DNA of 64,000 nucleotides from Elusimicrobiota bacterium (GTDB lineage Bacteria; Elusimicrobiota; Elusimicrobia; UBA1565; UBA9628), in NCBI GenBank assembly GCA_016218575.1, contig JACRDN010000020.1, forward strand, positions 124,001-188,000. The letters are read 5' to 3'. Under the pieces are notes generated by a model. The model worked only from the letters and a program-made list of their open reading frames with translations, was not told the origin of the DNA and did not search any database. Positions within the stretch are counted from its first letter, which is position 1. Each line of letters starts with the position of its first letter. Made by a program: the position numbers and the translations under genes. Positions 51,741 through 54,737 of this stretch are shown one piece after another.

Positions 51741-53129
51741 CTAAGTCTTGTTGACCTGGCGGGCCCGGGCGATAGCCAGGGCCGCGTCCGGGACGTCCTC
51801 CGTTATGGTGGAGCCGGCCCCGATCCGGGCGCCGCGCCCCACCTTGACCGGGGCCACCAGGTTCACGTTGGAGCCCACGAAAGCCTTGGCCGCTATGGTG
51901 GTCTTGTGCTTGAGCTTGCCGTCATAATTGCAGGTGATGGTTCCGGCGCCGATGTTGACGTCCTCGTGTATCTCGGCGTCGCCGATGTAGCTCAGATGGT
52001 TGACCTTGGAGCCGAAGCCCACCCGAGAGGCCTTGATCTCGGTGAAGTTCCCGATCCGGGCGCGAGGGCCCACCACGGAGTCCGGCCGGATGTTGCTGTA
52101 GGGGCCGACCGTGGTCTTCTCGAGAATGCGGCAATTGACCAGCTGGGAAAGGCGAATCTCGCTTTCGTTGCCGATCTGCGCGTGCTCGATGTAGCAGAAA
52201 GGACCCACGCGGCAGTGCTTGCCGATCCTGGTCTTGCCCTGGAGGATGGTGAAGGGATGAATGATGGTATCCTGGCCCACCTCCACGTCGGCATCGACGT
52301 GGGTGGAGGCAGGGTCGAGCACGGTCACTCCGGAAAGCATCAAGCGCTCCAGGAGCCTGCGGTTCATGACCCTCTCTGCCTGGGCCAGCTGGACGCGGCT
52401 GTTGACCCCCAGGACCTCCTCGGAGGTCTGGCTCAAGTAGGCGTTGATCTTGCCGCCCTTGCCGCGGATGAGCTCCATGATGTCGGTCAGGAAATGCTCC
52501 TTCTTGGGGCCCTTGGGCCCGATGAGCTTGATCCCCGCCAAGAGGGAATCGAGCTCGAAGCAGTAGGCACCGGAGTTGACCTCGCTGATGCCGAGCTCCT
52601 TGTGGCTGGCCACGGATTCCTCGACGATGCGCTGGACGTCTCCCAAGGGCCCTCGCACCACGCGGCCGTAGCCCTTGGGGCTGGCGAGCTTGGCCGTGAG
52701 CAAGGTGACCTGGCCTTTCTGCTCCTCATGGCTGCGCACCAGGCCATAGAGGCTCTCGTAGGTCAAAAGGGGAGTGTCGCCGCACAGGACCACTATGGTC
52801 TTGAATTTCCTGAGAAAGCCGACCGCCTCGAGCACGGCGTTGCCGCTGCCCAGGGCTTTCTTTTGATGGATGAAGGAGATGGGGCGGTGTATTCCGGTGT
52901 CCTTGGATATCTCGGCGACGGCGACCTTGACCCGCTCGGCCTCATGCCCGACCACGACGCCGATCGCCGTGGGCTTCAAGGCGTTGGCCACGCGCAGGAC
53001 GTAGAAAAGCATGGGGCGGCCGCCGACCTGGTGCAGGACCTTGGGTATGGTGGACTCCATGCGGGTCCCCTCCCCGGCGGCGAGAACCAAGACGGCGAGA
53101 GATTTGGCGTTTTTCAGTGGCTGGCTCAT
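51741..53129 (-). CDS. glmU: Bifunctional GlmU (GlcN-1-P acetyltransferase / GlcNAc-1-P uridyltransferase)
   Basis: A 462-residue enzyme for the last two steps of UDP-GlcNAc synthesis. The N-terminal pyrophosphorylase has LVLAAGEGTRMES (near residue 14) and LCGDTPLL; the C-terminal left-handed beta-helix has NFTEIKASRVGFGSKVNHLSYIGDA and the acetyl-CoA site GSNVNLVAPVKVG. A MITE-like repeat lies 12 bases upstream of the ATG, so its end may have displaced or supplied part of the promoter. Confidence 0.97.
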   Translation of the reverse strand: MSQPLKNAKSLAVLVLAAGEGTRMESTIPKVLHQVGGRPMLFYVLRVANALKPTAIGVVVGHEAERVKVAVAEISKDTGIHRPISFIHQKKALGSGNAVLEAVGFLRKFKTIVVLCGDTPLLTYESLYGLVRSHEEQKGQVTLLTAKLASPKGYGRVVRGPLGDVQRIVEESVASHKELGISEVNSGAYCFELDSLLAGIKLIGPKGPKKEHFLTDIMELIRGKGGKINAYLSQTSEEVLGVNSRVQLAQAERVMNRRLLERLMLSGVTVLDPASTHVDADVEVGQDTIIHPFTILQGKTRIGKHCRVGPFCYIEHAQIGNESEIRLSQLVNCRILEKTTVGPYSNIRPDSVVGPRARIGNFTEIKASRVGFGSKVNHLSYIGDAEIHEDVNIGAGTITCNYDGKLKHKTTIAAKAFVGSNVNLVAPVKVGRGARIGAGSTITEDVPDAALAIARARQVNKT

Positions 53130-53140
53130 AGGTGTCGTAA

Positions 53141-53465
53141 GGCCCTGTCAAGTAATAATATGATCAATTTGGAGGCCCGAGCTTGAGACGAGTTCGAGGC
53201 GCGACGAGGGAGCATAGCGGTAGCTATGTGACCGAGGAGCAACGAAGAAATCGGCCAAGCTCGGGCCTCCCCGTCCCTTTCCAAAATATTGGAAGGGACG
53301 GCCCCTTCCAGTATTCTTGGAGAGGGGCCGAAGGGGCCAAGCGTTTTTGGGCTGCGACCGCGTCGCTCGTCGCTCACATACCGCTGTGGGTATGCTCGCT
53401 CCTTGCTTCTTGTCTCGCTCCAAAATCGCTTGGCCAAATTGATCATATTATTACTTGACAGGGCC
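53141..53465. mobile_element. MITE-like element with 32-base terminal inverted repeats
   Basis: A 325-base non-coding element bounded by perfect 32-base inverted repeats (53141-53172 and 53434-53465; outer end GGCCCTGTCAAGTAATAATA). The flanks share TAA (53138-53140 and 53466-53468), a likely 3-base target duplication. Inside, the two halves are also related in inverted orientation (GAGCATAGCGGTAGCTATGTGA against the complement of its partner), with two imperfect hairpins in the middle (around 53271-53301 and 53303-53332). Open frames on both strands merely mirror this symmetry; no transposase is present. The TNA-type target resembles part of the IS5 group, a weak inference. It separates glmU from tRNA-Gln. 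Confidence 0.8.
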
Positions 53466-53473
53466 TAAATAAG

Positions 53474-53544
53474 TTCCCAGGCCTGGACTCGAACCAGGAA
53501 TAGCGGATTCAAAGTCCGCTGTGTTACCATTACACCACCTGGGA
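53474..53544 (-). tRNA. tRNA-Gln(TTG)
   Basis: On the minus strand, acceptor TCCCAGG/CCTGGGA, anticodon stem GCGGA/TCCGC around loop CTTTGAA (anticodon TTG), T arm CTGG-TTCGAGT-CCAG, discriminator A. CCA is not encoded. Confidence 0.93.
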
Positions 53545-53545
53545 G

Positions 53546-53848
53546 TCAGAAAGGTTCGCATGATTTGGCCGAGGGAGCTTCTTTTTTGATCTCGGCCTCG
53601 TAACAGGCCATGACTTTGTCCTCCAGCAGCTTGCGGAACTCCATGTTGATGGGGTGGGCTATGTCCTTGTAGCTGCCGTCGGAAAGCTTGCGGGAAGGCA
53701 TGCATAGAATAAGGCCCTTGTTGCCCTCGATGATCTTCATATTCCTGACGACGAAGCAGTTGTCGAAGGTCACCGTGGCGAAAGCCTTCAACTTGTCCTC
53801 GTTGCGCAGATGAACTCGGATTTCCGTGATCTCCAAAGTGTCAACCAT
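53546..53848 (-). CDS. spoVG: SpoVG family RNA/DNA-binding regulator
   Basis: A 100-residue protein read from the ATG at 53848 (MVDTLEITEIRVHLRN), which overlaps the ispE stop. The family core is intact: KLKAFATVTFDNCFVVRNMKI, then GLILCMPSRK and DIAHPINMEFRKLLEDKV. SpoVG proteins are small site-specific nucleic-acid-binding regulators in Firmicutes and other phyla. It is directly followed by tRNA-Gln on the same strand. Confidence 0.95.
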   Translation of the reverse strand: MVDTLEITEIRVHLRNEDKLKAFATVTFDNCFVVRNMKIIEGNKGLILCMPSRKLSDGSYKDIAHPINMEFRKLLEDKVMACYEAEIKKEAPSAKSCEPF

Positions 53849-54737
53849 TACAGCAGGTAAGAAAAACCTTCCAGGGATAACCCTGCAGGCGCTTGAGCAG
53901 CCTGGCCCCCTCCTCATGGGAAGAGACGAATCCAAAGACCGAGGACCCGGAGCCGGACATCCTCACCCCCCTGGCCCCGAGCCGGCTCAATATGCGCCGC
54001 GCCCTCTCCACATGAGACAAGGCCGGCACCGCCGCCTGTTCCAAACGGTTGAACAGGAGGGATTCCCAGTCTTGCAAAGGCCTTTCCCGCTTGAGACTGC
54101 CGATGAGTTTATCAAGATGGGAAAGCCTTGTCAACACGTCGCAACGGGAGGGCTTGGGCAAAGCTTTATAGGACTCGGCCGTGGAAATCCCCACTTCGGG
54201 GTAGACCAGGACCATGTAGGGAAGGGGTCCCGCCACCCGGATGGGCTTCAAACGGTCCCCGATTCCCGTGCCCAGGCAAAACGGGGCGGGATGGAGGAAA
54301 AAAGGAACGTCGGCCCCGAGGCGCGCGCCCAGGGCCCTGAGCCTGGCCTTCTTGCGCGCGTCGAGTTTGATCTCGAAGAGCTTGGCCAGGCCCAGAAGAG
54401 TCCCGGCCGCGTCCGAGGAACCGCCCCCGAGTCCGGCCCCGACCGGGATGCGCTTGACGAGATGGATTTTAACCCCCCGGCCGACCCGGAAGGCGCGCAG
54501 GAAAGCCTGGGCCGCCCGCCAGACCAGGTTCTCGGGACCCGCCGAAACCGCGCCGCCCGTCACGTTACGGTCCCCCTCCACGGTGAGCTCGATGCCGGGC
54601 CTGGGCCCGATCGAGAGGTCGAGCACGTCGTAGAGGTTGATCTTGGCGAAAAGCGTGGCCAAGCGGTGGTAGCCGTCTGAACGCTTTCCCGTCACTTCGA
54701 GGAATAAATTGATCTTAGCGGGGCATTGGACTTTCAT
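53841..54737 (-). CDS. ispE: 4-diphosphocytidyl-2-C-methyl-D-erythritol kinase
   Basis: A 298-residue GHMP kinase of the MEP isoprenoid pathway. The start ATG 54737 gives KVQCPAKINLFLEVTGKR, the family N-terminus; the ATP-binding loop is PVGAGLGGGSSDAAGTL and the C-terminal GARGVRMSGSGSSVFGF closes the site. A GTG 15 bases upstream is an alternative. It overlaps the end of the TPR-LolB gene, preserving the lolB-ispE-prs neighbourhood known from gammaproteobacteria. Confidence 0.95.
   Translation of the reverse strand: MKVQCPAKINLFLEVTGKRSDGYHRLATLFAKINLYDVLDLSIGPRPGIELTVEGDRNVTGGAVSAGPENLVWRAAQAFLRAFRVGRGVKIHLVKRIPVGAGLGGGSSDAAGTLLGLAKLFEIKLDARKKARLRALGARLGADVPFFLHPAPFCLGTGIGDRLKPIRVAGPLPYMVLVYPEVGISTAESYKALPKPSRCDVLTRLSHLDKLIGSLKRERPLQDWESLLFNRLEQAAVPALSHVERARRILSRLGARGVRMSGSGSSVFGFVSSHEEGARLLKRLQGYPWKVFLTCCNG

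Follow-up and report, generated by a model that had tools for sequence, protein, structure and literature searches.

What is the 325-bp element that separates tRNA-Gln from glmU in this Elusimicrobiota genome, and why do its two halves resemble each other? The element lies at 53141–53465 of the window, by which we mean the whole 64,000-nucleotide stretch of contig JACRDN010000020.1 (GCA_016218575.1) analysed here. Perfect 32-bp inverted ends bound it (left, 53141–53172 on the plus strand; right, 53434–53465 on the minus strand; end comparison), flanked by TAA target duplications at 53138–53140 and 53466–53468, recognised from flank reading and comparison of copies. An earlier note had described a non-autonomous, MITE-like element with 32-bp terminal inverted repeats (TIRs) and a TAA duplication, and this is borne out. 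No transposase is found inside, as that note had also claimed: the three internal ORFs (91–106 aa) have no Pfam or PHROG family match. By anatomy, this is an ordinary MITE, one that would be moved in trans by a DDE transposase making a 3-bp TNA duplication. The usual view of MITE interiors is that they are IS remnants in decay. Here the interior looks like a conserved domain that folds as a single strand, and the element is probably best explained as a trans-mobilised MITE carrying a hairpin domain common to MITEs of several phyla. This covarying, cross-phylum GA-ladder core is the part for which the literature searched gave no description, and it merits further study.

Aligned with its own reverse complement, the element is 70% identical over its positions 1–325, which relates the inner halves to each other, and as single-stranded DNA it folds at −106.7 kcal/mol, a value that none of 100 shuffles reaches (mean −50.3, sd 4.2). 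The related inner halves, the near snap-back fold and the two central hairpins of the earlier note are therefore confirmed. The central hairpins (53273–53299 and 53300–53329) are real by folding but form an optional insert: complete copies are mostly 268 bp and lack them, and the 325- and 328-bp forms carry added hairpins at differing places. Each half is a hairpin of about 100 nt whose outer stem varies and whose purine-rich apex is conserved and forms no open loop. Module A spans 53172–53269 on the plus strand, as defined by its fold, and module B spans 53335–53435 on the minus strand, as defined by its fold and by alignment A2. Their cores, at 53185–53256 (plus strand) and 53349–53422 (minus strand), score 87.2 and 67.9 bits with covariance model R1, of which both are training sequences. 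We read the interior as two copies of one conserved hairpin domain that would face inward from both ends, the purine-rich strand of each being predicted to fold into a ladder of Watson–Crick pairs alternating with tandem G.A mismatches. These mismatches take the form 5'-GA-3'/3'-AG-5', and the order in each half is GC, GA, N, GA, NN, GA, G.U-closed hairpin, GA, NN, GA, N, GA, GC. The earlier note overlooked both this core and its presence in other phyla.

That note had also proposed a search for further copies, and these exist. The genome (2.82 Mb in 23 contigs) contains 23 ends of the 32-bp type (≤3 mismatches over 24 bases) against none for a reversed control pattern; eight elements are two-ended, and six of the seven single ends sit at contig ends. 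Two more subfamilies in this genome have other outer ends with a common inner AATAATATGA block and a common interior, and a further subfamily (L019:1330–1593) joins other ends (AGTGTAGTGTCCCATTATTATCTTGCCATTTGG) to the same core. A DNA match to the element occurs in 15 of 28 genomes, its own included. Among seven GG-ended types from Elusimicrobiota and Thermodesulfobacteriota, the two 3-bp flanks agree in 44 of 52 elements, each TAA, TTA or TCA (TNA). This count excludes the 'Myxo' group, whose overly permissive pattern gave 62 rows of which L134 alone was used, the 'Anaero2' group, whose pattern also matched the Elu1 elements, L049 and L076, and the 'Acido' group, in which one row (L082) is a chance match. 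Flanks read by eye in the other groups are CTNAG for most Anaeromyxobacter elements, CTAG on both sides of L135 and L108, and TAG for L134, with no clear duplication at L144; CTAG flanks some Acidobacteriota elements.

Individual copies record rearrangements of the same parts. L002 (C23:158594–158918 of the same genome) carries the central insert of the window copy but has module A the other way round, probably through recombination across the module stem. L006 (C19:277440–277767) has two additional hairpins within the module A core. Of another copy, L042 (C22:40090–40135), nothing but the ends is left: two 26-base end pieces share 6 bases to form a perfect palindrome of 46 bp, which has TTA on both sides and no core. 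Same-end elements without a core are also found in G028 (L195 and L246), L195 being a short palindrome resembling L042. An insertion can therefore persist without the core.

At the locus itself, glmU starts at 53129 on the minus strand, 11 bases from the element edge, and tRNA-Gln occupies 53473–53544; the MITE would have landed between these two members of a co-directional string, all on the minus strand. A SpoVG-like ORF (named by eye), tRNA-Gln and glmU run co-directionally on that strand across 51741–53935. Empty sites are plentiful among the relatives: tRNA-Gln lies beside glmU without the element in 15 genomes, drawn from 17 besides the element's own after one without a tRNA match and one with a partial glmU match were left out. 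In all 15 of these, tRNA-Gln is 20–115 bases from the first aligned glmU codon, compared with 343 here, and R1 detects no module at any of their tRNA-Gln/glmU loci. The letters TTGACA do read outward at both element ends. The suggestion in the earlier note that they influence glmU expression is unsupported: a promoter scan of 53000–53700 gave no promoter-like site (shuffle mean 0.3), and reading by eye found no −10-like hexamer 17 bases past TTGACA towards glmU. A weak terminator-like hairpin pointing towards glmU (53310–53290, minus strand) is within chance expectation (2 found; shuffle mean 0.8, sd 0.8). The effect of the MITE at glmU is probably little beyond a longer spacer.

Whether the ladder is maintained as a structure was assessed in two alignments. 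A2 comprises 23 B modules picked by their flanks, so that the ladder was not pattern-selected (24 candidates, with L053 left out), and A3 comprises 50 modules from several phyla (52 prepared, with the plus strand of L053 and L111 left out). Wider collections of cores are less neutral: the 113 distinct core rows were taken at a threshold of 10/12 GA letters, which favours GA, a looser pattern having been dropped (1780 rows, mostly noise), and the exact pattern fixed most GA letters together with the closing G and T, so that part of the GA conservation seen there comes from the pattern itself. In A2, 95.6% of ladder cells are paired and 10 of 23 pairs show two-sided changes; covariation reaches 0.184, against 0.075 (sd 0.009) for shuffles and at most 0.042 for slid versions. 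The corresponding value in A3 is 0.522, against 0.136 (sd 0.011) for shuffles and at most 0.093 for slid controls. Related sequences, in either alignment, are non-independent samples. Between the outer and middle GA steps stands a single pair, which is G-C in 16, C-G in 3 and A-U in 1 of the 23 A2 modules, and G-C in 21, C-G in 20 and A-U in 4 of the 50 in A3; another ladder pair in A2 is G-C in 15/23, U-A in 3 and A-U in 1. The hairpin-closing pair is G.U in 17/23 and G-C in 5/23 in A2, and G.U in 47/50 in A3, where it was imposed by the pattern in many rows. Complementarity of the flanks exceeds the 95th percentile of control positions in 52 of 70 non-redundant cores and falls below that mark in the other 18.

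The GA sites behave differently from the pairs around them. They are paired in only 3 of 138 A2 cells, and all four positions are purines in 60 of 69. This observation bears most directly on the possibility that the interior is neutral, its symmetry kept by template switching and gene conversion and its core conserved only through the recency of the copies. Some copies are indeed nearly identical, palindromes are known to be self-corrected, and the core-less elements described above, L042 with its TTA duplication and L195 and L246 in G028, would fit such a history. Self-correction turns mismatches into pairs, yet here the GA/GA sites stay unpaired while the neighbouring pairs swap, the opposite of what it predicts, and the core is common across phyla to elements with different ends and outer stems. 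Neutrality of the interior is thus already disfavoured and we consider it unlikely. The behaviour of the GA sites is our main reason for concluding that the purine strand is very probably under selection for its single-stranded fold.

The core extends well beyond the Elusimicrobiota. R1, built from 50 modules, finds the core in 46 of 198 genomes from that phylum, including 43 of the 142 of good quality, and the exact pattern occurs in 100 stretches of the genome_contigs collection. By record label, 41 of these belong to Elusimicrobia, 28 to one Thermodesulfobacteriota MAG, 7 to Deltaproteobacteria, 9 to Anaeromyxobacter isolates, 2 to Myxococcales and 6 to Acidobacteria with Luteitalea and Vicinamibacteria; the remainder are from Omnitrophota (2), Nitrospirae, Saprospiraceae, Bacteroidales and ANME-2 (1 each), with 1 unlabelled. 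The phyla represented beyond Elusimicrobiota are therefore Thermodesulfobacteriota, Myxococcota (cultured Anaeromyxobacter), Acidobacteriota, Omnitrophota, Nitrospirota and Bacteroidota. For ANME-2 and Bacteroidales, whose copies belong to the Thermodesulfobacteriota type, mis-binning or a recent transfer is likely. At the 27 loci read outside named Elusimicrobia, the core is generally enclosed by inverted ends, which vary with the group; several are truncated by contig ends. The occurrence of the core in differently ended elements of several phyla suggests a shared function.

Searches of other collections returned little. No Rfam family scores above its gathering threshold, the lowest E value in the element being 0.37, far below gathering. 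The 72-base core has no match in plasmids or phages, and the exact pattern is absent from viral contigs (0). Neither the 32-bp end (weak partial matches at E 9 among the matches listed) nor the Anaeromyxobacter element (E 0.04 for two short matches) has a convincing counterpart in plasmids. A search of the published literature, with most subscription papers outside its scope, found no description of a GA-ladder core.

A further alternative makes the core a DNA-level site, for landing or for subterminal binding, of one widespread transposase family, IS5/PIF-Harbinger-like, inherited along with its mobiliser. TNA-type duplications are typical of the IS5 superfamily and PIF-Harbinger, and the flanks described above (TNA in Elusimicrobiota and Thermodesulfobacteriota, CTNAG in Anaeromyxobacter, CTAG in some Acidobacteriota) agree with such a source. 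The conserved letters depend on arm–arm pairing, though, which double-stranded binding does not need, and such a transposase was not found in several element-rich genomes. PF01609 has no match in the element's own genome, NF033580 none in the element-rich genomes G000, G001, G013, G015 and G024, and PF13359 gives 0 of 22; of these families and PF01797, none accounts for the distribution of the elements. We therefore regard this origin of the core, too, as improbable.

A full IS with the same 32-bp ends, whose existence the earlier note had raised, was not found in the own genome or its relatives by TIR patterns with inspection of unpaired ends, in assemblies that break at repeats. Contigs of the own genome that end inside these elements are C1, C5, C6, C8 (at both ends), C10, C12, C14 and C17. 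With so many contigs ending this way, the assembly breaks at the elements, which may conceal a full-length partner IS. One candidate autonomous IS, an end pair 1 kb apart at L079, proved to be two outward-facing remnants round a lytic transglycosylase-like gene (by eye) and was rejected. A search with the Thermodesulfobacteriota ends yielded core-less elements and no transposase between ends of this kind.

It is very improbable that the element is REP/REPIN-like and moved by a RAYT (Y1 tyrosine transposase) recognising the hairpin: three RAYT genes do adjoin elements (two in G001, one in G029), but the element has a target duplication and long TIRs, only one of 30 fetched RAYT loci contains it (L231, the match at L237 being chance), the element on C37 of G001 sits inside the RAYT's own inverted repeat as a nested insertion, and RAYT was rejected as mobiliser on its uncorrelated presence across genomes (G004 has 23 element matches and 0 RAYT, G018 12 RAYT matches and 0 elements). 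At L073:3063–4256 (G001), an element is inserted within a 38-base inverted repeat, with a RAYT gene enclosed by the same repeat.

Returning to a domain selected for its single-stranded fold, G.A steps are possible on the purine strand only, since the opposite strand would give C.T. By RNA energies the purine strand has the more stable fold in 77 of 81 modules, an advantage over its complement that comes in part from the energy model, where G.A costs less than C.T. Wobble counts for one strand disagree with each other, at 47 versus 21 in the flanking stems and 16 versus 22 in A3 outside the closing pair. Orientation relative to neighbouring genes was counted for elements whose locus extends at least 100 bases to each side. 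For 18 single-module elements, the upstream gene has the same orientation in 5, the opposite in 7 and is absent within 400 bp in 6, and the downstream gene is same in 6, opposite in 7 and absent in 5. Sixteen elements of other groups include 5 inside a called ORF, which were not counted; the other 11 give 6 same, 4 opposite and 1 none upstream, and 7 same and 4 opposite downstream. With no orientation bias to neighbouring genes, a cis-acting RNA is not favoured. We put the chance that the fold works as RNA for the element itself just below even; that it does so as single-stranded DNA, in replication or transposition, is a less favoured though plausible option. In either form, the partner bound by the fold would be a factor found in many bacteria, not any single transposase.

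A covarying structure that is kept across phyla while the ends change implies that something is selected, by the element or by its hosts. We tentatively propose, with somewhat more doubt than conviction, that the G.A-mismatch hairpin ladder is a functional cargo shared by otherwise unrelated MITEs of at least seven phyla, acting as folded RNA or single-stranded DNA, to which ERIC may be a remote relative. The core also provides a testable handle on MITE success and a new motif for RNA and repeat databases.

Among known systems, the closest in build are bacterial MITEs such as QMITE1/2 of Coxiella and Chunjie of Geobacter uraniireducens (PMC10969869, PMC5896051). Like these, as far as the consulted parts of the two papers describe them, the present elements are short and intergenic, with TIRs, direct repeats and stable hairpins and without a transposase (PMC10969869, PMC5896051), and Chunjie, compared by description only, likewise varies in length between copies (same sources). 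The portion of PMC10969869 consulted names no structured domain common to bacterial MITE families of different phyla, unlike the situation here. The GTAG and CGTC REP superfamilies, according to the sections seen of PMC3733652, are small palindromic repeats of 20–40 bp over 8 phyla, tagged by unpaired GTAG or CGTC and linked to RAYTs. Our element differs from them in its TIRs, its target duplication and its lack of correlation with RAYT. CORE-SINEs, in which a conserved central domain is common to elements with different ends, offer a parallel in that respect and differ in being eukaryotic retroelements. ERIC, an enterobacterial MITE, shows a likeness to the core and is not a member of it, since R1 gives no match to two E. 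coli copies (L266 and L267) at E up to 10 and their ends are other. In both copies the fold is a long stem whose internal loops are purine-rich on one strand, the innermost GA/GA step standing beside a G.T-closed hairpin in a looser form of the core.
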